Shown: positions 9,789 to 31,065 of the stretch, piece after piece
Position numbering within the stretch: the first letter of the stretch is position 1
How the letters are laid out: each line of letters opens with the position of its first letter
Assembly (NCBI GenBank): GCA_001801215.1
Contig: MGXA01000106.1
Coordinates: forward strand, 1-38,313
Origin: Gallionellales bacterium RIFCSPLOWO2_02_FULL_59_110
Lineage (GTDB): Bacteria; Pseudomonadota; Gammaproteobacteria; Burkholderiales; Gallionellaceae
Length of the DNA stretch: 38,313 bases
Reading direction: 5' to 3'
The notes under the pieces: generated by a model
The model's input: only the letters and a program-made list of their open reading frames with translations
What the model was told of the DNA's origin: nothing
Database searches by the model: none
Translations under genes and position numbers: made by a program

Positions 9789-9956
9789 CTGCGCAACCCT
9801 CACCATAGTGCAATTGGGCAAGTATACACAAAGGGCAAGGCAGGCAGAAGCAGGCTCTCCCACCGACAAACCACGCTCGCTCCGGCGAATTTTCGTTGTA
9901 GCGTTTTTCCATCGTAGCTATTGATCCGGTTTTTCGGTCAACTGAATTATCCGGCC

Positions 9957-10805: not shown

Positions 10806-11020
10806 TCAGCGTGCACCAACGGGATCAACTGTTTTTTGAGAAGCCTCCTTGAGCAGAAACCCCGCACTCAAATATTTTTTGCGCTCCTCGGTGAAGGGAA
10901 CGGCGTTCGGCAGCTTGAGTAAATCGGCGCGGGTGGTTTCGGCTAGGGCGCTGGTGATGCCCGCCAGCAGCAGGGAGAAAACAACCGTTACGACAACAAA
11001 CTGACGAGGTTTCCTACCAT
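10806..11020 (-). pseudogene. Remnant of a small secreted protein gene
   Basis: The 558-bp stretch between two toxin-antitoxin pairs holds no intact gene. One minus-strand frame ending at TGA 10806-10808 reads as a signal peptide (basic start, then FVVVTVVFSLLLAGITSALA) followed by about 45 soluble residues containing LPNAVPFTEERKKYLSAGF. No ATG, GTG or TTG lies in frame between the upstream stop and the signal peptide. An ATG at 11020 is in another frame and stops after ten codons, which suggests a frameshift at the start. The family is not recognised. The rest of the stretch shows nothing I can support. Confidence 0.4.
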
Positions 11021-11149
11021 GACCCTGTGCGGGCTGAGGGGGAATGCAATCAACGCTTCAACAGTTTATCTAATCCGCTGGAATCAATCTTGATAGGCTC
11101 TGCCCACCTCGCGAAAACCGTGGTACGTCCATGTGGTTTCCTTAATTAA

Positions 11150-11557
11150 TTATGGCCTCAACACCAGATGCACGACCAACTCGGAGTATCGGCTCAGTGC
11201 AACATCGGTGGTGAGCAAATAGGCTGGTAAGGAATGCGCCTGCGCAATCAGTAATCGATCAAACGGGTCGCGGTGATGCCAGGGCAAATTCACCAAGGGA
11301 TTGCAATCCTCACCTTTCACAGTCAATTCGGTGAACCCGGTGTCCTGCGCAAGGCGGTGAATATCCTCTGGAGAAAAATCAAAATCCGCACGATTCAAAG
11401 AGTGCTTGATCGCTATTTCCCAAATACTGGCTGAGCTGAAATAGACTGTGTTGGATGAATCAGACACTCCCGCAACCACCTCTGGCGGCAAGCGCTCGGG
11501 AGCAAGCAATGTCGCTAGCAGAACATTCGTATCCAGCAAGTACACGTGCCGGGCCAT
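11150..11557 (-). CDS. PIN-domain toxin (VapC family), partner of Phd-type antitoxin
   Basis: The 135-residue PIN domain has YLLDTNVLLATL with the first Asp, SASIWEIAIKHSL with the central Glu (a pattern common in the PIN subgroup paired with Phd antitoxins), and HHRDPFDRLLIAQAH plus LLTTDVALSRY with the last acidic residues. It is a predicted ribonuclease toxin. Its ATG shares the A of the antitoxin TAA stop (TAATG, at 11557), so translation is coupled. It is sequence-distinct from the PIN toxin at 9957. Confidence 0.88.
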   Translation of the reverse strand: MARHVYLLDTNVLLATLLAPERLPPEVVAGVSDSSNTVYFSSASIWEIAIKHSLNRADFDFSPEDIHRLAQDTGFTELTVKGEDCNPLVNLPWHHRDPFDRLLIAQAHSLPAYLLTTDVALSRYSELVVHLVLRP

Positions 11558-11799
11558 TACTTGCCCTGCTCGAACATGCCGGTTATTTCACCCGCATTCA
11601 AGTTGTCGAAGTTTGACGGAAAAGTGAAATGTTTCTTGCCCAGCCCCAGCTTACGAGATTTAGGCACAACAGAGGCCAGAGATACCAAGCGCGCCACCGG
11701 CTTTCCGGCACGCGCGATCACGATTTCTTCCCCCGCCTCCGCCTGTTCAACAATGCGCGAAAACTGGGTTTTAGCTTCATGGATATTGACGGTTCGCAT
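11557..11799 (-). CDS. Phd/YefM-family antitoxin
   Basis: The 80-residue protein begins MRTVNIHEAKTQFSRIVEQA and continues AGEEIVIARAGKPVARL, the diagnostic Phd/YefM fold signature (short N-terminal helix, then the I-x-R-x-G-K-P-V strand). The C-terminal GKKHFTFPSNFDNLNAGEI segment would wrap and inhibit the PIN toxin encoded immediately downstream. Phd antitoxins usually repress their own promoter; a matching dyad lies at 11822-11841. Confidence 0.88.
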   Translation of the reverse strand: MRTVNIHEAKTQFSRIVEQAEAGEEIVIARAGKPVARLVSLASVVPKSRKLGLGKKHFTFPSNFDNLNAGEITGMFEQGK

Positions 11800-17698: not shown

Positions 17699-18121
17699 TC
17701 ATTCGCTGAATTCCCATTGCGGGTTCCATACGACCTCCCACAAATGCCCATCGGGGTCTTTGAAATAACCCGAATAGCCGCCCCAAAAGGTATCCTGCGC
17801 CGGCTTCACGATGATGGCGCCGGCCTTCCCGGCCTGCTCCATCACCGCATCGACTTCCGCCCTGGAGGCAACATTGTGCCCGAGCGTGAACTCGGTAGCG
17901 CTTGGATCGCCCGGAGGAATTCCAGCATCGTATGCGATATTCGCCCGTGGCCAGATTGCCAGCTTCAGGCCTGGCTGCAAATCGAAAAAAGCTACCGCGC
18001 CATGCTCGAATTCCGCACCGACGATACCCCGCGTCGGCAACCCGAGCCCATCGTGGTAGAACGCCAGCGATTTTTTCAGATCGTCCACGCATATGGTGAT
18101 AACAGTAATGCGAGGTTTCAT
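17699..18121 (-). CDS. VOC (glyoxalase/bleomycin resistance) family protein
   Basis: The 140-residue single VOC unit pair begins [20 protein letters not shown] and ends with the typical [17 protein letters not shown] strand carrying a metal-ligand Glu. Such proteins are metal-dependent lyases, dioxygenases or binding proteins, and the substrate cannot be told. The ATG at 18121 overlaps the stop codon of the DUF188 gene by four bases and is preceded by AAGGAGGG, so this start is firm and the two genes are coupled. Confidence 0.85.
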
Positions 18122-18618
18122 TTCCGTCCCTCCTTGCTGTTGATGCGACACCAATCGAGATAATTCTGCCGCGCTACGCACTTCGCCAGAAATTTATCCA
18201 GTTGGTTCGCGAATGCCTGACGGTCGCCCTGGTTGAGCGCCGGCGGGCCGCCCGTATCCACCCCGCTGCCGCGCAGGCCGTCCATGAAATTGCGCATCGT
18301 CAGCCGCTCATGGATCGTGTCCTTGGTGTAAAGCTCCCCGCGCGGATTCAAGGCATGACCGCCGCGCGCGATTACTTCGGCGGCCAGCGGAATATCGGCG
18401 GTGATCACCAGGTCGCCAATCTCGACCAGCTCGGCGATTTTGTTATCCGCCACATCGAACCCCGCCGGCACCTGTATCGCCCGGATGACCTTGGACGGCG
18501 GGCAGTACAGCAGCTTGTTTGCCACCAGCGTCAGCCGGATCTGGCGCCGCTCCGCCGCGCGGAACAGGATTTCCTTGATGACCTTCGGACACGCATCGGC
18601 ATCCACCCAAATCTGCAT
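18118..18618 (-). CDS. YaiI/YqxD family protein (DUF188)
   Basis: The 166-residue protein starts [20 protein letters not shown], the signature of the DUF188/UPF0178 family. It continues with [19 protein letters not shown] and [14 protein letters not shown], both well conserved and consistent with a PIN-like nuclease fold, though no activity is established. It is intact, in contrast to the decayed copy at 20420-20755. Its stop overlaps the VOC gene start. Confidence 0.9.
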
Positions 18619-18653
18619 ATATTTTATCTACTCTCGCCCGGAGAAACCGGAGC

Positions 18654-20063
18654 TTACCCCTGCTCTCCGGCAAACATGTCTTCCTCGATTTCTTCCCGCG
18701 TTTCTTCCTGATCGCGAATCATTGCGATAAAACTGTCCAGCAATGCGGTATCCCACTGGCCGCTGCCGCGCTCGCGATCCAGGATCGACAAGGCTTTCTC
18801 CACCGTCATCGCCTTGCGATAGACGCGGTCGCCGGTCATCGCATCCCAGGTGTCGGCGATGGCGACGATACGCGCGAGCAACGGGATCGCCACACCCTTC
18901 AGCCCGTCCGGGTAGCCGTTGCCGTCCCAACGTTCGTGATGCCAGCGCGCGATCTCGGCGAACACCTTGAAGCGGGTGAGCGGTCGCATGATCGTGTAGG
19001 TCGCCTCCGGGTGCTGTTTCATCACCTCGTACTCGCGGTCGTCGAGCGGGCCAGGCTTGTTGAGGATGGCATCCGGAATGCCGATTTTTCCGAGATCATG
19101 CATCAGCGCGCCCTGCTTGAGCAGGGTCAGTTCCTGTTCGGGCAGGCCGATGCGCCGCCCGAGCAGCACCGAGTAACGCGACACACGCGCAGAGTGGGTG
19201 GCCGTGTAGGCGTCCTTGGCCTCCAGCGCCTTGGCCAGCGCCTGCATGGACTGGATGTAGGCGCGCTCCTGTTCGGTCAGCAGGTGCTCGATGCTCTCGG
19301 CCAGGTGGTTGATCGAGGCGCCGAGCTGGCCGAGCTCGTGTTCGCCGCGCAGATGGGCGCGCGCGCCGAGTTCGCCCGATGCGATACGGCGGGTCACCCT
19401 GGCAAGCTCCCCGATAGGCCGGATCAGCCCGCGCTGCACGATCCACAGCAGGAAGGCAAGCATGAGGGAAAACACTGCCGCCCAGACCATGACAACCTCG
19501 CGCTCGAAGCGCTCGACGAGGGTGCGAATGGTGGCCAGCGTCTTGTTGACATCGATCTCCACCTCCAGCAACCCGATCGGCGTTCCGCGATGATGCAGCG
19601 GAATCACGATGTCGAAAGCCGGGATTTCCTTGCCAACGCCCGCGACCTTCTTCCACTCTAACTCGCCGCCCAAATATGGGTGGCGCGTGCGCAATACCCC
19701 GCCCAGGTAGCCCGACATATCCTTCGGCCTGCGGGTAGCATCGGGTTCGGAATGCGCGAGATAGCTGCCGTCCGGAGCCACCGCATACATCTGGAAAATC
19801 GAGAAATCGTACACCTCGTGGAGATGGCTCCTGGCGTGATCCACGAGCCGCTGCACGGCCGCGCGATCGGGGATGTTCTCGCGCTGGAATTCCTCTTCGA
19901 GGGTGAGCAAATAAGCGACCGCCTGTTTCTTGGTCTGCTCCATCATCGCGTTCTCGAGGATCGTCTCGCCATACAACACGAGAACGATAGAGCTCGCCCC
20001 GATGCCGAGGGTGATGAGCAGGGCGAAGCGCTGCGACAACCTGATGCGTTTGAGAAATCCCAT
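18654..20063 (-). CDS. Membrane HAMP/HD-GYP c-di-GMP phosphodiesterase
   Basis: From ATG 20063 the protein has 469 residues. It has a transmembrane segment near 12-32, a periplasmic sensor region to about 185, a second membrane segment near 192-212, a HAMP domain to about 270, then an HD-GYP domain. The catalytic features are complete: HSARVSRYS, MHDLGKIGIPDAILNKPG, HHERWDGNGYPDGLKG and IVAIADTWDAMTGDR. It should hydrolyse c-di-GMP, opposing the GGDEF enzyme at 2781. The longer reading to 20135 adds a basic, poorly conserved tail and is less likely. Confidence 0.9.
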   Translation of the reverse strand: MGFLKRIRLSQRFALLITLGIGASSIVLVLYGETILENAMMEQTKKQAVAYLLTLEEEFQRENIPDRAAVQRLVDHARSHLHEVYDFSIFQMYAVAPDGSYLAHSEPDATRRPKDMSGYLGGVLRTRHPYLGGELEWKKVAGVGKEIPAFDIVIPLHHRGTPIGLLEVEIDVNKTLATIRTLVERFEREVVMVWAAVFSLMLAFLLWIVQRGLIRPIGELARVTRRIASGELGARAHLRGEHELGQLGASINHLAESIEHLLTEQERAYIQSMQALAKALEAKDAYTATHSARVSRYSVLLGRRIGLPEQELTLLKQGALMHDLGKIGIPDAILNKPGPLDDREYEVMKQHPEATYTIMRPLTRFKVFAEIARWHHERWDGNGYPDGLKGVAIPLLARIVAIADTWDAMTGDRVYRKAMTVEKALSILDRERGSGQWDTALLDSFIAMIRDQEETREEIEEDMFAGEQG

Positions 20064-20419
20064 CTTCAAAGCCGCATCCGGCCCCGTGCCTTGGCGGGGC
20101 TGGCATCGTTTTTTGCTGTTCTGCCGCACAGGCAAACCGGACGCTTCATGACTGATTCCTTGTTTTCAATAGCGCTTCATTTCAAGCGGGCAACCAAGCG
20201 GGCGAATGGATTATTCGGGTTCCGGGTTTGACATGCAACCCATCCCGCAACCATTCACGTAGAATTGTCGCTGCACTATAACGCTGCCCGCAGCGAAAAA
20301 ACATATGCCTGGATTATTTCCTCCCCCCATCGCGCCAGCCAAAATCGAACGTTTCTTCTCCGAACAAAGCCAGCTACTACTGCCAATTCCATCACGCAGC
20401 CGATATGTGTGAAAGCCAG

Positions 20420-20755
20420 CAGACGCATCATCAGCCTTTCCTGGATGTTGCCCTTGGTGTAAAACTCCCAGCGCGGCTTCAGGGCATGGCCGCCCCGCGC
20501 GATCACCTTGGCGACCAGCGGGATACGGCGGTAACCACCGGGTCGCCAATCTCGACCAGCTCGGCGATTCTACTGAACCGCCACAGCTAAACCCGTCGGC
20601 GCCTGCATCGCCCGGATGGCTTTTGATGGCGGGCGACGCAGCAGCTTGTTCGCCACCAGCGTCAGCCGGGTCTGCCGCCGCTCCGCCGCACGGAACAGGC
20701 TTTCCTCGATGAACGTCGAGGCACATATCGGCATCCACCCATATCTGTATTGCGA
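20420..20755 (-). pseudogene. Decayed second copy of the DUF188 (YaiI) gene
   Basis: This stretch is clearly homologous at DNA level to 18290-18618, the intact DUF188 gene. Both share long runs such as GGTCGCCAATCTCGACCAGC. It begins [10 protein letters not shown], then loses frame, with the rest of the protein spread over other frames. The C-terminal third is missing or replaced by unrelated sequence below 20420. It lies just left of the displaced def 3' end, so it was probably next to def before the element inserted. The stretch 20064-20419 shows no other gene. Confidence 0.85.
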
Positions 20756-20797
20756 ACCCCAATGTGCCGTGAAATCAGGATAGCCGCTGTTCCAGGA

Positions 20798-20884
20798 TCA
20801 TTCGTCCTGCAATGCCTGGTTTGGAAACAGTTCTTCGCTATAGCCGAACCGGGTGATATCGCGGATGCGCATCGGGTACAGGAT
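20798..20884 (-). pseudogene. def: Displaced native 3' end of def (peptide deformylase)
   Basis: Read from the att core, the minus strand encodes ILYPMRIRDITRFGYSEELF and on to QALQDE and TGA at 20798. This aligns with the C-terminus of the intact def (ILYPMRVVDMRRFGFQDVLF). Only these 28 codons and the stop remain, and they start exactly at the 18-bp repeat shared with the intact gene. This is what is expected when an element inserts in a gene and supplies a substitute 3' end. Confidence 0.9.
20867..20884. other. attL: 18-bp core of the def-integrated element
   Basis: GCGCATCGGGTACAGGAT occurs here and at 30604-30621 as a direct repeat. It encodes ILYPMR of peptide deformylase on the minus strand. 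Identity ends abruptly on both sides, defining the limits of the integrated element. Confidence 0.9.
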
Positions 20885-20933
20885 GGTCGCCTGAAAGACG
20901 CTAAAACGCTGGATTACGGCGACCATCACATTA

Positions 20934-21026
20934 CGTTACACACATCGTTACACCTACCGTTTTTACCTATTTTTCGCGACGCCATCGACAATTTGTGGTC
21001 GCACTCGTGGGTAAAGTTGCGGGTAA
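20934..21026. repeat. Left arm-type repeat cluster (candidate integrase sites)
   Basis: Two direct CGTTACAC copies (20934-20941, 20946-20953) and two inverted copies of the TTACCCAC type (GTGGGTAA at 21007-21014, GCGGGTAA at 21019-21026) lie just inside attL. The same words recur inside attR (30405-30457). This is the arrangement of arm-type sites bound by the N-terminal domain of tyrosine integrases. Confidence 0.6.
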
Positions 21027-21076
21027 TTCTAATGCAAAGAATGGCAGCCTCGTGGTCATTATATTCACGCTTGCCA

Positions 21077-21319
21077 TCACTTGCCTCCATTCTTGGACAC
21101 CCACCGATACATCATGCTGCGTGAAATGCCGTTGCCTTTTGCAACCTCCCTGTCCGGCTTAGTGCCATTCTCTGCACGCTTGGCGATATTGACCCGCTCG
21201 CCACCCCAGTCGCGCCGGAACTGTTGCTCGATCTGCAACGCCTGTTCCTCAGTGAATGATGGCTGCATCTCCCTCACGGCCTGCAACAGGCATTCGATGA
21301 GGTCGCGCCCATTGCTCAT
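21077..21319 (-). CDS. Mor-like HTH transcription regulator (phage type)
   Basis: The 80-residue protein ends in WGGERVNIAKRAENG followed by GISRSMMYRWVSKNGGK, a pattern like the C-terminal DNA-binding half of Mor/C activators of Mu-like phages (WGGE, then basic residues, then HTH). The N-terminal half is helical. It overlaps the terminase gene stop by four bases (21316-21319) and is the last gene before attL. It may instead be a small-terminase-like DNA-binding protein; the call is by pattern only. Confidence 0.55.
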   Translation of the reverse strand: MSNGRDLIECLLQAVREMQPSFTEEQALQIEQQFRRDWGGERVNIAKRAENGTKPDREVAKGNGISRSMMYRWVSKNGGK

Positions 21320-23160
21320 CCGCCGAACCTCTTGGATTTGCCCAGCGAGATGCGCCCGCCGCTGAAGCAGTGCTCGGCGGGTTGCGCCAATGCAGGCGTC
21401 TGCGCCGGTCGAACTTCTGCACCTGGCAGTGCCTTAGTTTCGGCTTCGGCTTGCCGCTCGAATAGGACACTCTGCCGTATTCGCTTTTCATAGCTATCCC
21501 ACGAATCAGGTCGGCGAGTATGCAAACCCATGGCATGCACTAGCCAGAGTGCATACACAGTGCAATCCAGCGCCTCATTGCGACGGTCGTTGCGCTTCTT
21601 CCACTGGCGCCGCTTTGGGTTATGGCGCATCGGAATTTTGATTTCAGAAAGCAATTGTTCATAGAAGTCCGGTCGCACGGTTTCGTACCAGTGCATACGG
21701 TGTGGGCCATCGCCTGACAGACGCACGCGGCCGCCTTCTTGCGCCCAGCCGAGAATGGCGTCTTTCGCCTTGGCTGTGCCGACGATATGAACATGCACGC
21801 CATGCTTGTCAGACTTTCGCCCTGAACGATTTGGATCGATGGATTGCTGCGAGGGAGCACGCCAAATTTCGGCCTGGCCTTCGGTATCCGAGGCTCCCTT
21901 GATGGCATAGATTGGACGGGGGCGGCCATTGCGCTTGCGCACGAATTCATAGACAGCACTCGATGTTTGCCCATCTGAAGAGTCAATGGCTACAGCAGCA
22001 ATCGGCAATGAAACACCGCTGGCGTGCCGTACGGTTTTTTCCAGCAGATTATCGAGGTCGAACCATGCACCGGCAAAAGGGACGATGGTCTGTCCAGGCA
22101 ACTCACCCCAATAGGCCAGCCACATTTCCTCACGCCGGCCGATCACCCAGCAGGTGACGGCGAGGCGGTCATGCTGCACGTCGACTGTGACCACAGGAAT
22201 CATGCCGCCCTCTGGAACCGACCATTCCACGTAGGGCTCGGCGCGCTCCCGCAATTCATCTTCCTCAGGCAGCTCGCCGCGATATTCCCATGGCAGGCCC
22301 AGCGTTGAATTCCAGAAGGTGATCATTTCACTGTTGTCGCCCTCTTCCTGCTTGTGCCGCGCTTCAAGAAACTTGCGCGCCAGAACGGGTACGCGCGAAC
22401 CGCCGAAGGTAGACATGAGTTCATTGAGCAAAAAGCCGACGGTGCCGGTTGACGGTGCAGTAGCCTCGAAGTGCCCGAGCCTAATGGCGTCGTGGCGCTC
22501 TTCCTCTGACCACGCCGTACCGCAGGCTGGGCATGTGTAGAAGGCATCTTCCCATCGGGCGGTGCCGTAAATTTCGCGCTGCGGTTGATCTATGGCCTCT
22601 GGGATAATGATGCGATCCCAAGATGGAACATGCTGTTCGCTACAGTGCGGACATGGGATATGGAATTTGCGTTGATCACTGGCGAGAATTTCCTGCTCGA
22701 TACTGCTGGCGCCCTTTGCAGTAGGCGTGCCACCGATCAGGATCAGGTGATCAGCGTAGGCCTTGGCGCGCTCTTCCGCCAGCTTGATCGCGTCGCCTTG
22801 GCCTCGCACGTTTGTGCTGGCGTCATCAGGCTCCTCCACGATTACCACGCGTGCGCTGGTAGATTTCACATCTGACGGGCTGTTACTGCCCACCAGCTTG
22901 ATCAGCCCACCAGGATAGTGCTTGCGCGTCTGGCTGTTTCCAAGAGCGCGGCTCTTGAGGTTGATGCGCTCCGCCAACGGCGGAGTTGCACGAATACATG
23001 GGTCGAGCTTTTCCGCTGCGAAATCCTTCGCCGACTTCTCGCGTGGAAAAACGGCGATCTGCACGCTCGGGCGGTGATGGACGTGATAGCCCAAGACGTT
23101 GACAATAATACCGACTGTGTATCCGAATTGCGCCGGCTTCATGGTAACGACCTTGCGCAC
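21316..23160 (-). CDS. Phage terminase large subunit, GpA family
   Basis: The frame gives 614 residues from GTG 23160. MKPAQFGYT at 7-15 corresponds to the unusual Walker A of lambda gpA (KSARVGYSK), with a Walker B-like VVIVEEPDD near 105-113. A Cys cluster (170/173, 210/213) follows, as in GpA proteins. The nuclease domain shows VTVDVQHDRL near 325, AVAIDSSDGQ and NEALDCTVYALW. It would cut and translocate phage DNA into capsids. The frame stays open upstream of 23160 (DHTPALREILLSCSDPAVRK) but lacks an ATG, and the only well-placed ATG, at 23279, is in another frame. The N-terminus is therefore truncated or frameshifted. Confidence 0.85.
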   Translation of the reverse strand: MRKVVTMKPAQFGYTVGIIVNVLGYHVHHRPSVQIAVFPREKSAKDFAAEKLDPCIRATPPLAERINLKSRALGNSQTRKHYPGGLIKLVGSNSPSDVKSTSARVVIVEEPDDASTNVRGQGDAIKLAEERAKAYADHLILIGGTPTAKGASSIEQEILASDQRKFHIPCPHCSEQHVPSWDRIIIPEAIDQPQREIYGTARWEDAFYTCPACGTAWSEEERHDAIRLGHFEATAPSTGTVGFLLNELMSTFGGSRVPVLARKFLEARHKQEEGDNSEMITFWNSTLGLPWEYRGELPEEDELRERAEPYVEWSVPEGGMIPVVTVDVQHDRLAVTCWVIGRREEMWLAYWGELPGQTIVPFAGAWFDLDNLLEKTVRHASGVSLPIAAVAIDSSDGQTSSAVYEFVRKRNGRPRPIYAIKGASDTEGQAEIWRAPSQQSIDPNRSGRKSDKHGVHVHIVGTAKAKDAILGWAQEGGRVRLSGDGPHRMHWYETVRPDFYEQLLSEIKIPMRHNPKRRQWKKRNDRRNEALDCTVYALWLVHAMGLHTRRPDSWDSYEKRIRQSVLFERQAEAETKALPGAEVRPAQTPALAQPAEHCFSGGRISLGKSKRFGG

Positions 23161-23275
23161 CGCAGGATCAGAACACGACAGCAGAATTTCACGCAGGGCA
23201 GGGGTATGGTCGAGCGTGTATCCACCTTCGCCAACAGTGCGGCAGTGTCGATCTTCGCGTGGTTGAGCCGATCCG

Positions 23276-23416
23276 TCATTGATCGCTGCCCCGGTGCGCC
23301 TGTTTTTTATCGGCGCACCGTTGAAGTTTTTTCGTCGGCATCGGCATGAAACCGCCCGGCGTGCGCTTGCGCTCTGCCTGCGCCTTCCAATCGCGCCGGC
23401 GTTTGCCCTTTCTCAT
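23276..23416 (-). CDS. Small basic protein in the element, unknown function
   Basis: The 46-residue frame starts MRKGKRRRDWKAQAERKRTP and is very rich in Lys and Arg. Its ATG overlaps the stop of the 78-residue gene upstream (ATGA at 23413-23416), and its own stop overlaps the ATG at 23279 (ATGA). This end-to-end overlap on both sides supports translation. No family is recognised; nucleic acid binding is a guess from charge. Confidence 0.5.
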   Translation of the reverse strand: MRKGKRRRDWKAQAERKRTPGGFMPMPTKKLQRCADKKQAHRGSDQ

Positions 23417-23649
23417 ATCGAAGCCTGCGCAATCATGGCTGCATTGACAGGCGTCGGCTTTATGACGCCTGGCATTACTGCCTGCCTGTTTGCGGCCGCA
23501 CTACCGACAAGCCCTTTGCCTTGCACATAGGCCGCATAGGTGCAGATGTTGCCGAATTCTGCGCGAATCGCCGGATCAGCTTTCCAAGTTCTGATAATGT
23601 CTACGGCAATTTGGCCGTCATTGGTATTCTTGATATTCGTGGTTTTCAT
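23413..23649 (-). CDS. Hypothetical 78-residue protein in the element
   Basis: From ATG 23649, nine bases after a GGAG site, the product begins MKTTNIKNTNDGQIAVDIIR and includes WKADPAIRAEFGNICTYAAY. It is not recognised. Its position just ahead of the basic protein and terminase suggests a packaging or regulatory accessory, by context only. The 209-bp gap above it (23650-23858) shows no gene. Confidence 0.55.
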   Translation of the reverse strand: MKTTNIKNTNDGQIAVDIIRTWKADPAIRAEFGNICTYAAYVQGKGLVGSAAANRQAVMPGVIKPTPVNAAMIAQASI

Positions 23650-23858
23650 GATGCAGGTCTCCATAATTGCTCAGCTTAGGAAAGTGACAGGCTCGACGCC
23701 TTTAAGGTGGTTAACCAAGGGCGCTCCTTGCCTGTCGCCATTGCCACACCGGGCAATGGAGGATGCGTTCCCATCCTCACCAAATCATCCGGCTATGCCC
23801 ATCCGAATAAAGCGACAAACTGGCTCTGGGACGCTCTCTCGCCAGATTGCCGTACATT

Positions 23859-24488
23859 TCAGTTGCCCAGCGCATCCAGGCGACGGCGTTGCTCAGAAGA
23901 CGCCTCGTAGCCGATGCGATCGCCGTACCGCTTGACCAATTCCGGCAGGTGCAGGGCATCACTCATCCAGCCGCCGAATGGCCCTTTGTTGACCGGATAT
24001 TGCACCACCGAAAACCGGTGCGCAGCGAAGCCATCCGCTTCAAGCTCCACACGGAAACGGCGCTCCTCGGCATTGGCTTCGGCGATGGTCAACAGGCTGT
24101 CCACGATGCGGTGCGCGCGCGCATGCTGCTCATCGATACGCACGGGTATGTACTGCTCTGCTATCACGGCCAACCGCGCAGCAACCAGCTTGCCGAGCTT
24201 TTCGCCGGCCAGCCGTAGCGCGGCGAGATGTGCCTCCTGTTGCGCATATTCATCGCGCATGGCCGCGATCGGCATCGCTGAAAAACCGTTGTTCCCGGCG
24301 ACAATCGCATCCGCCAGACGGCGCACATCGACATTTGCGCCCTCATTGATGCGACGATTCAGCTCCGCCAATTCGTTTTCTTTCGCGACGATGTTGGCGG
24401 CGTTTTCCGCGTGGCGGGTTTTAAGGTTGCGCAACTCCTGGTCGCGTTCGACGAAGCTGGTAAAACTAGGCTTGCTGCTCATGGTCAT
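23859..24488 (-). CDS. Coiled-coil protein of the element, unknown function
   Basis: The 209-residue protein has an N-terminal heptad-rich region (ELRNLKTRHAENAANIVAKE, then NELAELNRRINEG at about 17-50) and a long helical middle (LAALRLAGEKLGKLVAARLA). A C-terminal part with Trp and Tyr (GPFGGWMSDALHLPELVKRY) follows. Its ATG overlaps the upstream gene stop by four bases (24485-24488). It resembles small coiled-coil proteins found ahead of terminase genes in prophages, but no named family is recognised. Confidence 0.65.
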   Translation of the reverse strand: MTMSSKPSFTSFVERDQELRNLKTRHAENAANIVAKENELAELNRRINEGANVDVRRLADAIVAGNNGFSAMPIAAMRDEYAQQEAHLAALRLAGEKLGKLVAARLAVIAEQYIPVRIDEQHARAHRIVDSLLTIAEANAEERRFRVELEADGFAAHRFSVVQYPVNKGPFGGWMSDALHLPELVKRYGDRIGYEASSEQRRRLDALGN

Positions 24489-24754
24489 CCTTTCTTAGGG
24501 TGGTGGTTATGCGCCAGAGTTGGCGCGGTGGGTGAATGTTGCGTGGCTGTACCTTTGCGCAAACCGGCGGCAAAGGCATCGGCTACGACTTTGAAGGTTT
24601 GCTGGCGATTAAGTATGCTGACGGGTCTGCATTCCTCGACTGACCGTAGAACATGCTCAGATCCGGCCAGGTCGCGTGCATCGATCATGCAGCGCAGGTC
24701 GGCAATGAGATTGAGGCTGACCAAGGCAAAGCCGCTATCGCGCTCTTCATGCAT
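24485..24754 (-). CDS. Hypothetical 89-residue protein in the AlpA operon
   Basis: From ATG 24754 the product starts MHEERDSGFALVSLNLIADL and contains MIDARDLAGSEHVLRSVEEC. The start overlaps the preceding gene by eight bases, and the stop overlaps the next gene by four. An apparent longer frame to 24859 runs through the coding sequence of the upstream gene and is rejected. Function not recognised. Confidence 0.55.
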   Translation of the reverse strand: MHEERDSGFALVSLNLIADLRCMIDARDLAGSEHVLRSVEECRPVSILNRQQTFKVVADAFAAGLRKGTATQHSPTAPTLAHNHHPKKG

Positions 24755-24938
24755 GTCCGCCGCCATTCTTTTGGCGCTGATCGGCGCGCTGAACCTGTTG
24801 CAGCTTGCGTTTTGCCCAGCGCTTTTGAGCTCGATTGCCGGTGACGAGAACACCCTCAATGACTACAGGGCGGCTTGTTGCCGTGATGTTTTCGGACATG
24901 CGCCCCATGCCGCCGGGATGGTTGCGGTAGTAGCTCAT
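24747..24938 (-). CDS. Hypothetical 63-residue basic protein in the AlpA operon
   Basis: The product begins MSYYRNHPGGMGRMSENITA and ends with a strongly basic helix (RAQKRWAKRKLQQVQRADQR). Its ATG overlaps the AlpA-like gene stop by four bases (24935-24938). It is not recognised; the basic tail could bind nucleic acid. Confidence 0.5.
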   Translation of the reverse strand: MSYYRNHPGGMGRMSENITATSRPVVIEGVLVTGNRAQKRWAKRKLQQVQRADQRQKNGGGHA

Positions 24939-25162
24939 CGGCGCGCACCCTCGGCGAGGGATTTTCTGATTTCCCCAACATTCCAACGAGTACAGCCGGG
25001 GGAAAATTTTTTAGGGACTGGTATGCGGCCAGATGCGCAATCCCGCCAAATGCTGGCCTTGCTGCGGTCATAGAGTACCATCAATACTTTGATATCCACC
25101 TGTGCTTGATCCGGGAGGCGATCCCAATGCTCCACCGCAATCGGTAAGGATGGGGTGGTCAT
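24935..25162 (-). CDS. AlpA-like HTH regulator / excisionase-type protein
   Basis: The 75-residue protein has a winged-helix AlpA/MerR-like core: VLYDRSKASIWRDCASGRIP at about 30-49, then PKKFSPGCTRWNVGEIRKSL, where 'P-x-K-x-S-x-G-x-x-x-W' is the diagnostic wing of AlpA proteins. AlpA proteins in P4-like satellites and prophages activate the integrase or act as directionality factors. It overlaps genes on both sides by four bases, the second gene of a tight chain that starts at 25338. Confidence 0.8.
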   Translation of the reverse strand: MTTPSLPIAVEHWDRLPDQAQVDIKVLMVLYDRSKASIWRDCASGRIPVPKKFSPGCTRWNVGEIRKSLAEGARR

Positions 25163-25338
25163 TTTTGCTTCCTGGAATCAATGAGGCGCTGAAATGCGTC
25201 AGATGGCCACATAAGGCGGCGGTTTGGTGGGCGTGTCGGCGTTACGCCGTAATAGCTGCCAGTGCGGCAGACTGCCGCGCGGATACTCTGCGGCTGGATA
25301 CCCAGGCGGGCCGCCAGGGCGGCGGTGGTTTGATCCAT
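25159..25338 (-). CDS. Small HTH-like protein heading the AlpA operon
   Basis: This 59-residue gene begins MDQTTAALAARLGIQPQSIR, a helix-turn-helix-like start, and continues with YYGVTPTRPPNRRLMWPSDA, which looks like a DNA-binding wing. An AAGGAG site lies nine bases before ATG 25338, and the stop overlaps the AlpA-like start (25159-25162). Other frames here are rejected because they lack a ribosome site. It is probably a regulator of the element. Confidence 0.65.
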   Translation of the reverse strand: MDQTTAALAARLGIQPQSIRAAVCRTGSYYGVTPTRPPNRRLMWPSDAFQRLIDSRKQK

Positions 25339-25405
25339 GACGTTGCTCCTTTCAGATACCGCGTAGCGGCCGCAACGTCAATATGCCTATTTAAATTGTT
25401 TAGCT

Positions 25406-25434
25406 GTTGCCAATAACTCGCATTTATTGGCAAC
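25406..25434. promoter_or_regulatory. Perfect 11-bp dyad upstream of the AlpA operon
   Basis: GTTGCCAATAA (25406-25416) and TTATTGGCAAC (25424-25434) are perfect inverted repeats around seven bases. They lie 68 bases upstream of the operon start and 27 bases after the stop codon of the 216-residue gene. There is no T-run on the minus strand, so an operator is more likely than a terminator. TTGGCA of one arm could double as a -35 box, which is speculative. Confidence 0.6.
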
Positions 25435-25460
25435 GTTCATAAATCAACCGAAATTTAGTA

Positions 25461-26111
25461 TCACTTGCGCAGACGGTAGCGTTGCTCAAGCTCTGCTAAC
25501 CAATCGCTATTTTTATGCTTGTCATAATCCCGCACGATCGTCCTTATGGAGTCGGACTTTCCACGGCTAAGGTCTTGGATTTCAGCCCATTTTTTTGCTG
25601 CCGGTTGTACCTTTGTTGTTTTCAACTCCGCCATCCACCAACATACAGCAATGGCATTGCATTTCTCTCGATTCCTTAACTGGTACGTGCCTTTAGGGTG
25701 GCCTGGCTTGCTCTTACTCAAGCCGAAGGCCTCATCCATTGTGTAGCCGTATCCGCTGCCAAACGTCTTAAAAACACCCGCCAACCCACTCTGCAGAGGC
25801 ATCGGAGGAGATAGATGGTGCGCTACAAATGCGTTGTAAACCTCCAGCAATTTTTCCCAAGCCAAACGATCACCTTCTTTCAAGGCAAACTGCATGGCGC
25901 TATCAGCGGCCTTATCTATTTCTTCTGGCAGGAAACAGCCTGGCATCGCCAAGCTGTCCCACATGAAATTGAGGGCGCCACCAAATAGATCATCTTCCGT
26001 CTTCTCGCGATCAGTAAGGCATTCCGCCACTGTGCGATCCACTACGGTGGCCCACCTTGGAATTAAGACCCACTCCTCTGAGTCTTCGTTGTATACGATG
26101 TCATCAGCCAT
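25461..26111 (-). CDS. Hypothetical 216-residue protein of the element
   Basis: The acidic N-terminal half includes EEIDKAADSAMQFALKEGDR; the C-terminal half is more basic (AIAVCWWMAELKTTKVQPAA, then SDSIRTIVRDYDKHKN). No family is recognised. The base composition is visibly more AT-rich than in the flanking housekeeping genes. It sits 17 bases downstream of the 184-residue gene and probably forms an operon with it. No membrane segment or signal peptide is evident. Confidence 0.6.
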   Translation of the reverse strand: MADDIVYNEDSEEWVLIPRWATVVDRTVAECLTDREKTEDDLFGGALNFMWDSLAMPGCFLPEEIDKAADSAMQFALKEGDRLAWEKLLEVYNAFVAHHLSPPMPLQSGLAGVFKTFGSGYGYTMDEAFGLSKSKPGHPKGTYQLRNREKCNAIAVCWWMAELKTTKVQPAAKKWAEIQDLSRGKSDSIRTIVRDYDKHKNSDWLAELEQRYRLRK

Positions 26112-26128
26112 GATTGATCAATGAGGTA

Positions 26129-26683
26129 TCAATTGGAATGCTCCGGATAATTGGTGCCATAGCGCCCGCGAAGAGTGTGGAGAACACGCTCTTTCTCTAC
26201 CAGGTAGCGGGTGCATCGATCGGAAGGTACAACCTCGCCGTGAACGGTAGCAAGTTGACCCAAGTTCAGTTCCTTGAAAATGAGCGCGGAGAGTTCGCAC
26301 AGCCTCTTCACGGCCTTGTCGTTGCATAGCGGTTGGCGGATGTTGTCAATCTGCCTGCCGCGATAAACGCGTTGTGAATCTGGAACAAAGAGTACGCGGG
26401 GAATTGGTAGTGCCTTGGGCGCAATATCGAGAACCGAACCGTCTGGCTGTTTCCACACGGCATGAAATTCTGCCTCAATAAACACCTTTGGCCATTCCCA
26501 GATCGCCCACCCGAAAACGCGCTGGCCACCAGCAGTTGCAATCTTTTGCTCGACAATAGGAAAGCACTCATTGGCTGGGACGCCAGACTCGGGCAGGCAC
26601 TGGACATACGCTGGAGAAGCGTCTGCGACAAAACTGCGGCAGAACCTCAACACATAGGGCTTGATCAGTTTTGGTGGGCGCAT
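26129..26683 (-). CDS. Hypothetical 184-residue protein (FGWAIWEWP motif)
   Basis: The protein has a Trp-rich core (QRVFGWAIWEWPKVFIEAEF, followed by HAVWKQPDGSVLDIAPK near 72-100). I recall a similar core in uncharacterised proteins that sometimes carry SEC-C zinc motifs, but no SEC-C motif is visible here. A conserved E-x-E-F-H-A-V-W could be a catalytic or metal site; this is inference. It lies between HigA and the 216-residue gene. Confidence 0.55.
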   Translation of the reverse strand: MRPPKLIKPYVLRFCRSFVADASPAYVQCLPESGVPANECFPIVEQKIATAGGQRVFGWAIWEWPKVFIEAEFHAVWKQPDGSVLDIAPKALPIPRVLFVPDSQRVYRGRQIDNIRQPLCNDKAVKRLCELSALIFKELNLGQLATVHGEVVPSDRCTRYLVEKERVLHTLRGRYGTNYPEHSN

Positions 26684-26718
26684 GAGATCGGACTCACATC
26701 ATTCAATTGTCAGACAAC

Positions 26719-27096
26719 TCAAGCCGCTTCCTTCCGCAATTCGTAGGGCTGGATCAGCACTTCGACGGGCAGATTCAAACCATCAGCCAAGAGCCGGATC
26801 ATCCCCAGCGTGAGCGGACGGGTTCGGTTGAGAATATCCGATACGCGACCCCGAGGCCCGATGTAGGGCTCCAGATCCTTGCGGGTCAGCCCCCTGTTTT
26901 CCATGACGTGGGTCAGGAACTCGATAGGGTCGGGGTCGGGGATCGGATAGTGCTGGCGCTCGTAGTCTTCGATCAACATCACCAGCACGCCAAGCCTGTC
27001 GGCCTCGGGCGATTTGGCGGGCGCATCCCATAGGCGCTCTGCCTCCGCCAGCGCCGCCTGGTAGTCCTTTTTGGTGCGGATGGGTTTCAGCTCCAT
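26719..27096 (-). CDS. higA: HigA-type antitoxin (HTH)
   Basis: The 125-residue protein matches the COG5499 type of HigA: MELKPIRTKKDYQAALAEAE at the start, the IPDPDPIEFLTHVMENRGLT middle, and an HTH around 75-120 (KDLEPYIGPRGRVSDILNRT, then LTLGMIRLLADGLNLP). In intact loci the toxin HigB is encoded just upstream, but only its C-terminus remains here. The antitoxin itself is full length. Confidence 0.85.
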   Translation of the reverse strand: MELKPIRTKKDYQAALAEAERLWDAPAKSPEADRLGVLVMLIEDYERQHYPIPDPDPIEFLTHVMENRGLTRKDLEPYIGPRGRVSDILNRTRPLTLGMIRLLADGLNLPVEVLIQPYELRKEAA

Positions 27097-27105
27097 TTCG
27101 GCTCC

Positions 27106-27207
27106 TTAAATCGTTTCCACATTGATCTTGTCGTACTGGCGATGGTTGCCGATGAAGCGGACGAACATCTGCCCACGGTCATAATGCACTGCCAGTGCCC
27201 TGATCAT
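27106..27207 (-). pseudogene. higB: Truncated HigB toxin, C-terminal 33 residues only
   Basis: The frame MIRALAVHYDRGQMFVRFIG to INVETI and TAA matches the end of HigB-type mRNA interferases, whose last strand ends 'RFIGTHAEYDKIDAETI'. About two thirds of the toxin is missing. The gene boundary is exact: the ATG overlaps the mqsA stop codon (ATGA at 27204-27207), and the stop lies nine bases before higA. So the stump could still be translated. It lacks most of the fold and is unlikely to be toxic. Confidence 0.75.
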
Positions 27208-27611
27208 CCCGCCTTCAATTCATTCAACAAGTCAGGATGCCGATCCAGCAGCCGGAATAAATTGGTGACAGCGGCCACCGGTTTCGCTTGTCCGCGTTCG
27301 TAGCGCGAAAAGGCATTCTTGCCGCCCCCGGCCAGCCGTGCGGCCTCTTGCTGTGTCAGCCCGAGCTTCTTGCGGATACGCGCCAGTTCGGCGATTTCCT
27401 CCGCATCCACACGGTCGCGGAATGCCTGCCATGCGGCCTCTTCCCTGGCATCATGCTCGGGGAAACCATCGTGGCAATGATTGCAGAATGCCCCCTTCGC
27501 CGTGTACGCGTATGCACGTCCACGGTATTCGAGTTGCTGTTTGTGCTTGCCGTCGCGCAGTGTTCCCTCGCCGCACAGCGGGCATTGCTTGCCGTTCCAT
27601 TTCGATGTCAT
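27204..27611 (-). CDS. mqsA: MqsA antitoxin (zinc finger plus HTH)
   Basis: From ATG 27611 the protein has 135 residues. The N-terminal zinc domain has Cys pairs at 10/13 (QCPLCGEG) and 43/46 (AFCNHCHDG). A C-terminal XRE-type HTH (RIRKKLGLTQQEAARLAGGG, then NAFSRYERGQAKP) follows. This layout and length match MqsA, which binds MqsR and represses the operon. It lies directly after mqsR, the toxin-first order typical of this pair. A longer reading to 27716 runs into mqsR coding sequence and is rejected. Confidence 0.9.
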   Translation of the reverse strand: MTSKWNGKQCPLCGEGTLRDGKHKQQLEYRGRAYAYTAKGAFCNHCHDGFPEHDAREEAAWQAFRDRVDAEEIAELARIRKKLGLTQQEAARLAGGGKNAFSRYERGQAKPVAAVTNLFRLLDRHPDLLNELKAG

Positions 27612-27612
27612 A

Positions 27613-27912
27613 TCAACGCTCCTTGAAGGAAACCACGATGTAACTATCTGCCTGCTGTATCTTGACGTAGAGCGGCTTGCCGCGCCACTCCGCGTGATAC
27701 ACGTCCTGCCAGACACGGTGATCCTTGTTCGTGGTCATGCTCTTGTAGAAGTCGGTCCGGGAAAGTCCCCGCACCACTTCAAGCGCCTCCGCCTTTACCA
27801 TGCCTGCGGCACGGATGCCGTTCTGTGCCGTAGAGGTCAAGTTCATCGCCTCAACCGTTATCATCTGTTCCTTGATGTCGGCAAGCAGGTAATGTGGAGA
27901 GCGCTTTTCCAT
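27613..27912 (-). CDS. mqsR: MqsR toxin (mRNA interferase)
   Basis: The 99-residue protein matches MqsR in length and in its conserved segments MEKRSPHYLLADIKEQM, ALEVVRGLSRTDFYKSMTT, WQDVYHAEWRGKPLYVKIQ and the IVVSFKER end. MqsR is a RelE/YoeB-like ribonuclease cutting mRNA at GC-containing sites. It is followed after one base by mqsA. As cargo of the element, the pair may stabilise it. Confidence 0.92.
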   Translation of the reverse strand: MEKRSPHYLLADIKEQMITVEAMNLTSTAQNGIRAAGMVKAEALEVVRGLSRTDFYKSMTTNKDHRVWQDVYHAEWRGKPLYVKIQQADSYIVVSFKER

Positions 27913-27954
27913 GGGTTGATATTACCCTAATAGGGGGGTTGTATGCAATGTTGC

Positions 27955-28788
27955 CTATGCGGGAACTACCGCCGCTGCATCGCTTGTGGCTGTGAGTAAT
28001 TCGACCATGAATCGCTGAATATTGGCTTCCATTTCAGCCTCGCTAAACCGGTGCCGATGCCCTTCAAATGCTTGGGCCACGATACTGTCTATGTTCCGCA
28101 TTTGTTGTGTCCGAGAAAACACAACATCGCCGCTCCTGATGGTTTCACTCAGTGCGGCAATCGATTGATCGATCTTTTCAGCCGTCTTATTTTCAAAAGA
28201 ATAGCCGTCTGGGGCCGCCAGCAGGGATGGGACTATTTTCGTGACGTACCTCGCGCATGTGCCACTGAAATCTTCCGCGCTGGTAAACATCCCGCCAATT
28301 GATTTTCTGGCTTGCTCGGCTGCTTCTTGATATGCCCGCTCCTTGCCCTCTTCGGTAGCTCCGTCATTCTTCATAGCACTCGCCACCCATTCATCAAACT
28401 CAGCACGCGATGCCCGCTTTTCCTCGTCGGTCATGGCGGCTTCCGGCTTCTCCCAACCATCCGGATAGTAACCGATGCCATAAAGTTCGTTCCTTACATA
28501 CTCCGCAAGAGTGGCAACGAAGCCCGCCATGAAGCCGCCCGGATTCCCCGCCGCATGAAGCATTACCGCTACTGCGCTGTCATTTTTGCGCCACCACCGC
28601 TCTTGCGAACGATCGGTTTTTTCGCCGCCTTCCGCAATGCCTTCCGCAATTTTTTGTATGACACGCAACGCTTCCAGGCAGGCCATCGCGCCGGCGCGAG
28701 TTTCTTCGGTGCTTGTTAATGTAAAATTGGCGTTATCCGTTTCGAGCTGTTTAATCGATTCCTGACTGATAGAATTTGCGTTAGTCAT
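27955..28788 (-). CDS. Hypothetical 277-residue protein of the element
   Basis: From ATG 28788 the product begins MTNANSISQESIKQLETDNA. It is mostly helical, with RAGAMACLEALRVIQKIAEG near 35, DSAVAVMLHAAGNPGGFMAG near 75 and FEGHRHRFSEAEMEANIQRF near the C-terminus. No domain is recognised. The ATG overlaps the preceding gene stop by eight bases, so it is co-transcribed with the 80-residue gene next to the integrase. Its gene style fits phage or satellite accessory proteins, by context only. Confidence 0.6.
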   Translation of the reverse strand: MTNANSISQESIKQLETDNANFTLTSTEETRAGAMACLEALRVIQKIAEGIAEGGEKTDRSQERWWRKNDSAVAVMLHAAGNPGGFMAGFVATLAEYVRNELYGIGYYPDGWEKPEAAMTDEEKRASRAEFDEWVASAMKNDGATEEGKERAYQEAAEQARKSIGGMFTSAEDFSGTCARYVTKIVPSLLAAPDGYSFENKTAEKIDQSIAALSETIRSGDVVFSRTQQMRNIDSIVAQAFEGHRHRFSEAEMEANIQRFMVELLTATSDAAAVVPA

Positions 28789-29023
28789 GATGCGCACCGC
28801 CTTTCGGAAGCACAACATCAAGTTCACGAATCAAGAGCATGGCGCAGTCAGCAATTTTTTTCATAACCCGCCCCATGGTTAGCATATCGTCATCGCCATC
28901 ATGTCCCATTGCTTCTCCTGCCAATGCTAATGCGCGCAGGTCAAATAGCCCATCAATTACATTCGATTGAATATCCTCAAATGTAACCACTCTTTTATTT
29001 GCTGTAGAATTTGAATCAGCCAT
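28781..29023 (-). CDS. Hypothetical 80-residue protein next to the integrase
   Basis: From ATG 29023 the product begins MADSNSTANKRVVTFEDIQS and continues with GLFDLRALALAGEAMGHDGD and VMKKIADCAMLLIRELD. It is acidic and helical, with no recognised family. It shares an eight-base overlap with the 277-residue gene and starts 88 bases after the integrase stop codon. Confidence 0.55.
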   Translation of the reverse strand: MADSNSTANKRVVTFEDIQSNVIDGLFDLRALALAGEAMGHDGDDDMLTMGRVMKKIADCAMLLIRELDVVLPKGGAHHD

Positions 29024-29110
29024 GATGTGTAACTCCTTTATAGTTTGCTGCATTGTGGTAGGGGTTGCCCGGTGTTACAGCACTTGGCAGCCCCGCTTTG
29101 CCTGAAACGG

Positions 29111-30388
29111 TCAGGCCACCGTGCTGCTCTTGCGTACACCAACGGGAATCACCTTCCCGCCGGTCTTCCATTCATCCAACAGATCAGCCCACTGCTGCAT
29201 CATCTGGCGGCGTTCGTCGAGGTAATCGGCCCGGTTGTAAGCGCGGCGGATCGCGTCGCGGTCTTCGTGGTCGAGCTGCTTTTCTATGGCGTCGTAGCGG
29301 TATCCCATCTGGTTGAGGTGCGTCGAGGCCGTAGTCCGCGTGGCGTGGGGCGAGTAAGGGAAATCCAGCCCGACACGGCCATGCACTTTGCCGAGCGTGT
29401 CTGAAACCATTGGTTCGCCAGGCTTGTCGCGATGAGGGAACAGGTAGCCGATACCGCCGGTATATGCCTTCCAGGCTTTGAGCCGTTCGATCGCCTGGTG
29501 CGGCAACGGCACAACATGCGGCGGCAGTTGAGGGTTCTTGTTCTTCATGCGGGCGCGCGGCAGCGTCCAGGTGGCGGCATCAAGGTCGAATTCATCCCAA
29601 TGGGCTGCCACGGCCTCGCCCGGGCGCAGCATTGACCACCACAGCAAACGAAACGCCATCACGGTCTTGGGATCGCCGCGATAGGCATCGAGCGCGCGCA
29701 GTACAACTCCGACCTGTTTCGGCTTGAGCGGCGCCTTATGGGCGGTGCGTATGGCAGGCGTGAGCACTTCGCGCAGTGAACCGGCAGGATTGGTATCGGC
29801 GCGTCCGGTAGCGATGGCGATATTGAAGACGCTGGCGATGTAGTGACGCAGACGCCGGGCCACGTTCGGGCTGCCGACATCGCGCACCCGCGCGCCCCGC
29901 CCCGTTTTTTTCTCACTCTTGCCCGGCTTCTCCGCGCGGCGCAGCACGTCGAGAACATGCATGGGCGTGATCTCCCGCACCGGCAGTTGGCCGAGATAGG
30001 GCAGGATATGAAATTCGATCTGCGCCAGCCGGTTACGCTTGGTAGATTCCGCCCAGGTGCGCGATGCCACCCATTCATCGAAGATGGCGCCGAAGGTCTG
30101 CGCGTTCTGATGTGTGGCGCGAATGCGTTCGAGCTTCCGTTCCTGACTTGGGTTCTTGCCCTGCGCCAGCAGCTTGCGCAGCACGATCAGCGCCTCGCGC
30201 GCTTCGTCGCGGCTCATCTCCGGGTAGCGCCCGAGGGTATGTATATTTTCCTTGCCCGCAAAGCGGTAGCGGTAGCGCCATGATTTGGTCTTGGCGCGGA
30301 CATCCAGATAAAGCCCGTCCCGGTCAATCAGGCGATAGGGCTTGTCCTTCGGTTTTGCGTCTTTGATTGCAGTATTTGACAGCGACAT
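29111..30388 (-). CDS. int: Tyrosine recombinase / P4-type integrase
   Basis: From ATG 30388 the protein has 425 residues. The N-terminal DUF4102-type arm-binding domain shows KPYRLIDRDGLYLDVRAKTK and RYRFAGKENIHTLGRYPEMS. A core-binding domain spans about 95-200. The catalytic set is complete: Arg255 (MLRPGE), His348/Arg351 (SPHATRTTAST), His374 (LDHEDRD) and Tyr384 (RRAYNRADYLDERR). It would recombine attP with the def core. The gene lies 216 bases inside attR and reads away from it, the usual arrangement. Confidence 0.95.
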   Translation of the reverse strand: MSLSNTAIKDAKPKDKPYRLIDRDGLYLDVRAKTKSWRYRYRFAGKENIHTLGRYPEMSRDEAREALIVLRKLLAQGKNPSQERKLERIRATHQNAQTFGAIFDEWVASRTWAESTKRNRLAQIEFHILPYLGQLPVREITPMHVLDVLRRAEKPGKSEKKTGRGARVRDVGSPNVARRLRHYIASVFNIAIATGRADTNPAGSLREVLTPAIRTAHKAPLKPKQVGVVLRALDAYRGDPKTVMAFRLLWWSMLRPGEAVAAHWDEFDLDAATWTLPRARMKNKNPQLPPHVVPLPHQAIERLKAWKAYTGGIGYLFPHRDKPGEPMVSDTLGKVHGRVGLDFPYSPHATRTTASTHLNQMGYRYDAIEKQLDHEDRDAIRRAYNRADYLDERRQMMQQWADLLDEWKTGGKVIPVGVRKSSTVA

Positions 30389-30404
30389 GGTGGGCCCCAA
30401 AAAA

Positions 30405-30457
30405 CGTTACCCACATGCATTATTGGGCAACAACCAGAATTACCCACAACGTTACAC
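30405..30457. repeat. Right arm-type repeat cluster (candidate integrase sites)
   Basis: CGTTACCCAC (30405-30414), TTACCCAC (30440-30447) and CGTTACAC (30450-30457) lie between the integrase start and attR. The same words occur inside attL. The cluster abuts the integrase start codon, so integrase binding could also repress its own gene. Confidence 0.6.
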
Positions 30458-30531
30458 GCTTTTTTCAGAAACAGCAAGGCTTGCCTCAGGCTGTCTCATC
30501 CTGTCGCAATTCGTATCATTTACCATATACA

Positions 30532-31065
30532 TCATTCGCTTGCAGTATGTTCACCGCTCGGAAACAAGACATCCTGAAACCCGAAGCGACGCATATCGAC
30601 CACGCGCATCGGGTACAGGATCCCGTCCAGATGGTCGCATTCGTGCTGCACCACGCGCGCATGAAAACCGCTCGCCGCCCGGTCGATCAGCGCACCATGT
30701 TCGTCGCAGCCCTGATAGCGGATTCCGCGAAAGCGCGGCACCAGCCCGCGCAAGCCGGGCAGGCTCAGGCAGCCTTCCCATTCATCATCGATCACCTCTT
30801 CCAGCACCGTGATAACCGGATTGATGAGCACAGTTTCCGGCACCGACTCGGCATCGGGGTAACGCGGATTTTTTTGCACGCCGAAGATCACCACGCGCAA
30901 ATTCGCACCAATCTGCGGCGCGGCCAGCCCCACGCCGTTCAAGGCCTGCATGGTGTCGCGCATATCTTCCAGCAAGGCGCGCAAATCGTCGCCGAAGTTG
31001 CCGACCGGTTCGGCGCGCCGCAACAGCCGCGCATCGCCCATGCGCAACACCGGCCTAACGGGCAT
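30532..31065 (-). CDS. def: Peptide deformylase, 3' end supplied by the element
   Basis: From ATG 31065 (AAGGGG upstream) the protein has 177 residues. All three deformylase motifs are present: GVGLAAPQIG, EGCLSLP with the metal Cys, and QHECDHLDG with the HExxH zinc site. It removes the N-formyl group from nascent proteins. The last 30 residues, from ILYPMR on, are encoded by the integrated element. The native ending is displaced to 20798-20884. All catalytic motifs lie upstream of the junction, so the enzyme should work. The longer reading to 31110 lacks family support. Confidence 0.95.
   Translation of the reverse strand: MPVRPVLRMGDARLLRRAEPVGNFGDDLRALLEDMRDTMQALNGVGLAAPQIGANLRVVIFGVQKNPRYPDAESVPETVLINPVITVLEEVIDDEWEGCLSLPGLRGLVPRFRGIRYQGCDEHGALIDRAASGFHARVVQHECDHLDGILYPMRVVDMRRFGFQDVLFPSGEHTASE
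30604..30621. other. attR: 18-bp core within def
   Basis: GCGCATCGGGTACAGGAT, identical to 20867-20884 and in the same orientation, lies inside the intact def reading frame about 30 codons from its end. Bases on either side differ from the attL copy. Confidence 0.9.

Follow-up and report, generated by a model that had tools for sequence, protein, structure and literature searches.

Introduction

Phage 21 and e14 are examples of elements that integrate into icd, and phage-inducible chromosomal islands (PICIs), capsid-forming PICIs included, are small elements with an integrase, a regulator and replication and packaging genes that carry no complete virion set. According to the accessible text of PMC10111431, attP (the attachment site of the element) usually carries a replacement segment where an integrase targets a gene, and the icd prophages and islands of E. 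coli, which integrate inside this protein gene, keep it functional or readable by such a replacement. The accessible parts of PMC4482086 describe integrases that form a family dedicated to a single protein gene, dusA, and whose islands supply a new 5' end. With these two precedents, target-restoring elements are an established kind. Here we describe an element in a peptide deformylase gene (def) on contig MGXA01000106.1 of Gallionellales bacterium RIFCSPLOWO2_02_FULL_59_110; the whole stretch of 38,313 nucleotides is called the window. We put at roughly 94% the probability that a paralogue of def holds a site-specifically inserted tyrosine-recombinase integrative element which rebuilds the 3' end of the gene; this element is probably a reduced phage satellite.

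The mechanism is known from icd and dusA; def as a target was not found described in a literature search, the scope of which did not extend to the TIGER catalogue of mapped islands (NAR 2020), which may list def. In their accessible parts, PMC3864950, PMC9371924, PMC13098234, PMC8768576 and PMC3899980 did not describe def as an attachment site, and that of PMC12884075 did not mention deformylase. The nearest mention was in PMC3864950, where an integrase in Legionella islands has seven genes conserved next to it, a peptide deformylase gene among them. The element in the window resembles the icd elements in its integration inside a protein gene with a replacement on attP, and differs in the target gene. 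It resembles the dusA islands in an integrase tied to one protein gene and in the island-borne replacement, but the replacement here concerns the 3' end of def, and a 5' end is supplied there (PMC4482086, accessible parts). With def as the interrupted gene, its integrase falls outside the dusA-specific family.

The insertion in def

The def gene is read on the minus strand. Its body, with the HECDH motif, was located at 30622..31065 (PF01327, E=1.7e-46), and directly after this motif an 18-bp core, ATCCTGTACCCGATGCGC on the def strand, coded for ILYPMR at 30621-30604. The same core was found, exact in every base, at 20884-20867, with a spacing of 9,737 bp. Past the def-side core the present gene continued into RVVDMRRFGFQDVLFPSGEHTASE and a stop (30532..30603, minus strand, the end of the gene at 30532), while past the left core the frame read RIRDITRFGYSEELFPNQALQDE and a stop at 20800-20798 (20798..20866, minus strand), which gave 28 codons plus stop from the core start. 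When the right flank was joined in silico to the left tail, a single open def frame was obtained. A first-pass annotation of the window had reported both the repeat and the 28-codon deformylase C-terminus, and each was confirmed, the repeat to the base.

Of 100 dinucleotide-shuffled versions of the window, 3 contained an exact 18-bp direct repeat (mean 0.06 pairs). In the real window there were 14 pairs of identical 18-mers, of which 13 came from a duplication of a DUF188 gene and one was the def core. Chance was considered as the source of the core and was rejected in view of the shuffles and of the position of both copies, which are in frame in deformylase coding sequence. A tyrosine integrase gene (29111..30400, minus strand; Arm-DNA-bind_3, Phage_int_M and Phage_integrase domains, PF13356, PF22022 and PF00589) began 131 bp past the def stop and thus adjoined one of the two attachment sites, as in a site-specific integrative element. 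ARAGORN found no tRNA anywhere in the window.

These features suggest the following course. The element would integrate at the ILYPMR codons that directly follow HECDH, and its attP would carry a def-like C-terminal coding segment followed by the integrase gene. Recombination within the core would then create a chimaeric def with the body of the host and the tail of the element, joined in frame and ending at the stop of the element, and the host's own tail would be left orphaned at the far end. The window integrase presumably performs this recombination, and the chimaeric deformylase probably works.

The interrupted def is a paralogue and a second copy in its genome. The other deformylase, on contig C84, was 32% identical to it and adjoined genes that resembled fmt and rsmB by eye, so that it looked like the def-fmt cluster. 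A search for the longer deformylase, the type that is interrupted, in 61 genomes (E below 1e-50) matched 53 of them, the own genome included; eight held only the distant type, and five of these eight were at least 99% complete. The first-pass annotation had held that an essential gene was kept intact. With a second deformylase in the genome, and with eight of 61 genomes lacking the longer paralogue, the essentiality of the interrupted copy is unsupported.

Uninterrupted def in congeners

The search covered 36 genomes of the same genus, and the def locus was compared in 29 of them; of the other seven, four had the gene but their locus was left out, one had it in pieces and two lacked it. The left tail of the window matched the C-terminus of an uninterrupted def in all 29 loci, as had been predicted for related genomes without the element, and no integrase match was found in the flanks of any of the 29, which in most cases covered 1.5 kb to either side. 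The repeats at the two ends of the element were accompanied by a matching uninterrupted site in relatives. The tails of 27 of the 29 congeners were read out, the remaining two not being caught by the motif used; 25 were compared over the first 15 tail residues, and 18 of these were closer to the displaced tail of the window. In the congener with the closest def body (L003, 85% identity), 13 of the 15 residues were as in the displaced tail and 6 as in the present one.

The left fragment could also be read as the relic of a decayed second def or of a local duplication, with the integrase a mere neighbour. Local duplication does occur here, as seen in the duplicated, frame-broken DUF188 gene to the left of the fragment. 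The homology between the two sites, however, began at the core, with no def body upstream of the left copy; the fragment matched the native tail of the congeners; and the same arrangement recurred elsewhere, in three more genomes and a viral contig, as given below. We regard a decayed copy as very unlikely.

Related elements in other genomes

An integrase scan with one genome per species gave 23 related loci. Three of the integrases, from Gallionellaceae BIN13, Sulfuritalea MAG2 and Sulfuritalea R2F, were 80-86% identical to that of the window, and all three lay directly behind def, with the last sense codon 133-134 bp before the integrase match. The displaced def tails followed after 14,002 bp (BIN13), 12,037 bp (MAG2) and 15,018 bp (R2F); they were located, one per contig, when stretches of 54.6, 15.5 and 23.5 kb were searched in six frames with a peptide pattern. 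Exact words searched in the 21-kb loci of the three relatives gave no displaced tail. With an exact DNA pattern, the only hits across the genomes were the def-side sites and three places elsewhere (L094-L096), which were discarded because no def could be seen there by eye. Another core-like peptide match in the R2F contig was discarded as well, since it lay within a different frame. The remaining 20 integrases were only 31-43% identical, and no def match was found in the DNA examined at any of these loci.

A fifth element was found on an IMG/VR contig, which started with an integrase fragment 89% identical to the window integrase and ended with a terminase fragment 76% identical to that of the window and with a displaced def tail, of which the beginning, ILYPMRVRDFSRFGFTDVL, is included. 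This contig covers the far end only, with the def side beyond it. All five elements thus showed the far end, and a rebuilt def was seen in 4/4 where that side was covered; the four complete elements had both the element-supplied gene end and the displaced original, and the partial one had the displaced original. The first-pass annotation had proposed that the native end of def was displaced by an insertion that brought a homologous ending, and had advised a search for other elements with this integrase beside def. The proposal is supported by the 29 uninterrupted congeners and the four further elements, three of which had the full arrangement and one the far end only. The def site is documented in four genomes (three genera and two families, going by the records) and one viral contig. 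An assembly or binning chimaera of the def genes of two strains might be suspected, since the assembly of the window has 112 contigs, but the same kind of junction was present in three separately assembled genomes and in the viral contig, and such an artefact is extremely improbable.

The integrase was also searched in wider samples. In the family sample, 6 of 158 genomes passed at E 1e-90, and the close ones were the own genome and G851 (86%), which was counted as the BIN13 element because contig number and position coincided. Five of 399 genomes of the order sample and one of 369 of the class sample passed E 1e-100, and apart from the own genome all were 46-47% identical. Named phages (375 records) and plasmids (841) with related integrases all stayed under 60% identity, and among the best 80 of 228 relatives found in viral contigs with an alignment of the four integrases, none was above 42%.

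Tails, core and element ends

The four rebuilt tails shared 11-13 of the first 15 residues and 32-40 of 45 nucleotides among themselves, whereas the def bodies to which they are joined were 63-84% identical and the displaced tails shared 5-10 of 15 residues and 18-30 of 45 nucleotides. This pattern fits an element-borne tail on host bodies. The present tail of the window had 7 of 15 residues as in its own displaced tail, and within each of the four elements the present and displaced tails were identical at 22-26 of 45 nucleotides; in this clear divergence of the supplied tail from that of the host the def elements also differ from the icd elements. The exact core identity was 18 bp in the window, 9 bp in BIN13, 8 bp in MAG2 and 20 bp in R2F, and all four included CCGATGCG, which we infer to be the crossover zone.

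Arm-type sites of phage lambda served as the analogue for the repeated motifs near both ends of the elements, which are probably arm-type integrase sites. On the def side of the window (30401..30531, minus strand), GGGTAA and GTAACG were repeated. The motif positions were kept among the complete elements: all four had GGGTAA at element positions 177 and 210 as well as GTAACG at 212, and two of the four had TGTAACG at 166. The far region of the window (20885..21060, minus strand) contained TTTACCC and GTGTAACG motifs, which may have the same function, and the far ends of the four complete elements and the IMG/VR element were similar to one another in motifs and layout, not identical. The conserved arm motif, searched as a pattern across the collection, was found in three viral contigs (L109-L111), none of which matched the window integrase or the def tail.

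Several points weigh against a site-specific, gene-restoring element in def. Among the 25 congener tails compared, five were closer to the present tail of the window and two were tied. The codon differences between the supplied tails (1-5 synonymous and 1-3 nonsynonymous of 13) do not suffice as proof of selection. The crossover position is not fixed, because the exact identity in BIN13 and MAG2 extends over no more than 9 and 8 bp. The window element is also reduced and may be defective; as the shortest element, with a short terminase, this copy may not be mobile now.

Gene content and kind of element

All genes between the two core copies are on the minus strand, and further proteins without assigned function lie beside those named here. 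The large terminase subunit of the GpA type (TerL, 21316..23160; PF20454, PF05876 and phrog_15) had a shorter N-terminus than its relatives, with 614 aa against ORFs of 688-744 aa. TerL occurred in each of the five elements and lay towards the end away from the integrase. A small protein at 24935..25162, with homologues in all five elements, appeared AlpA/excisionase-like from its position; it was 69% identical to the IMG/VR homologue and 39% to that of the Gallionellaceae element (BIN13), and these two matched both Sulfuritalea copies in turn. It had no Pfam or PHROG match, and the Gallionellaceae homologue matched only phrog_66 (E=0.044). A 290-aa protein (27955..28827), which had no Pfam or PHROG match, was also present in the Gallionellaceae element, with 65% identity over 262 residues. 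Between these two genes were an MqsR-type toxin (27613..27912; PF15723, 5.8e-31), an MqsA-type antitoxin (27204..27716; PF15731, 1.4e-33, residues 44-168), whose ORF start is probably placed too far upstream, and near them a helix-turn-helix (HTH) protein like the B component of PD-Lambda-2 (26719..27096; HTH_3; PADLOC PDLC03982, 1.9e-38, residues 1-120). No primase, small terminase or capsid was recognised in the window element by Pfam or PHROG.

The relatives carried more of such genes. The Gallionellaceae element had a D5-type primase-helicase, a capsid-family protein, a minor tail protein and a Nu1-type small terminase, and the MAG2 element had a PriCT_2 primase. A VapE-type primase-helicase of the IMG/VR element was about 82% identical to R2F proteins, and a tape measure protein was present in the R2F element and in the IMG/VR element. 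A Gallionellaceae protein was homologous to these two and had no Pfam match. In the selected ORFs that were scanned, no full set of tail genes was recognised in the small elements with a tape measure. The four complete elements spanned 9.7-15.0 kb, the window copy being the shortest.

With TerL in all five elements and a primase, a capsid or a tape measure in some, the contents suggest that the def elements are a family of phage satellites, which presumably depend on a helper phage. They resemble the PICIs and capsid-forming PICIs in their small size, integrase, replication genes and some packaging or virion genes, and differ in the def target, in TerL in 5/5 and in a tape measure gene in at least 2/5; the PICI-type gene set was present in part in the relatives, and the window copy has the integrase and TerL. 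Tape measure proteins also occur in putative E. coli satellites, which are likewise small but are said to be without terminase genes (PMC10448857, accessible parts), in contrast to TerL in the def elements. Alternatively, an ordinary temperate phage that targets def could have left the element as its remnant, as the terminase in all five elements and the capsid or tape-measure gene in some relatives might indicate. The four complete elements are, however, small for this, and among the selected ORFs of the relatives that were scanned there was no complete set of head, tail and lysis genes, so we consider a phage remnant unlikely and the satellite reading preferable.

Some of these genes were also noted by position. 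At locus L097, the Gallionellaceae def element, the capsid-family protein and the Nu1-type small terminase (9417-10532 and 10887-11723) were reminiscent of capsid-forming satellites. The tape measure proteins at L103:3272-5389 and L102:3599-5644 (-) matched Pfam tape-measure families, and the protein at L097:4248-6200 was homologous to the L103 and L102 tape measures only.

Integrase phylogeny and a possible change of target

In a tree of 39 integrases, rooted at the midpoint and without L106 and L116, which were left out because of a stop, the four def-adjacent integrases formed one clade (support 100/100). This clade was placed inside a group (95/92) whose other branch consisted of integrases beside ychF and of rows L117 and L113. 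The ychF-side integrases were the nearest related group, at 41-47% identity, and in nine loci they lay 182-266 bp downstream of the ychF 3' end in the same orientation. L117 also had a ychF tail upstream. The gene was identified as ychF by Pfam in one locus and by eye in the others. Like the def integrases, these enzymes are encoded directly downstream of the 3' end of a protein gene in the same orientation; unlike them, they appear to target ychF. A single ychF tail per locus was found in the 10 loci scanned, most with short flanks. The ychF-side loci are L105, L107, L108, L033, L114, L115, L065, L067 and L118, plus L117.

The tree and the gene positions suggest a ychF-specific integration family and a switch between ychF and def as targets. 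Grouping the two kinds of integrase makes a target change between two protein genes testable in related enzymes. With the def elements, the 3' end of a def paralogue joins the protein-coding attachment sites, and the tails of host and element can be distinguished there. In a wider and unlikely scenario, one integrase lineage would have been re-aimed between ychF and def, and the def branch would impose a uniform C-terminus on the paralogue wherever it lands. The C-termini of deformylases are involved in ribosome contact, so a satellite-supplied tail could, if this were true, change the behaviour of the deformylase and not merely repair the gene. Deformylase structures exist for relatives.

The left flank of the element

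The first-pass annotation had also expected a DUF188-like sequence beside the empty site. This was not borne out in five congeners, in which no match to it, or to any window left-flank protein of at least 100 aa, was found over the 2 to 11 kb that were read downstream of def. In the window itself, two DUF188 copies about 2.1 kb apart lay within 18118-20762, to the left of the displaced def tail. The copy at 18118-18618 was intact by Pfam, and that at 20211-20762 was frame-broken, had no Pfam match and was recognised from shared words. Between the two copies was a gene that looked HD-GYP-like by eye.
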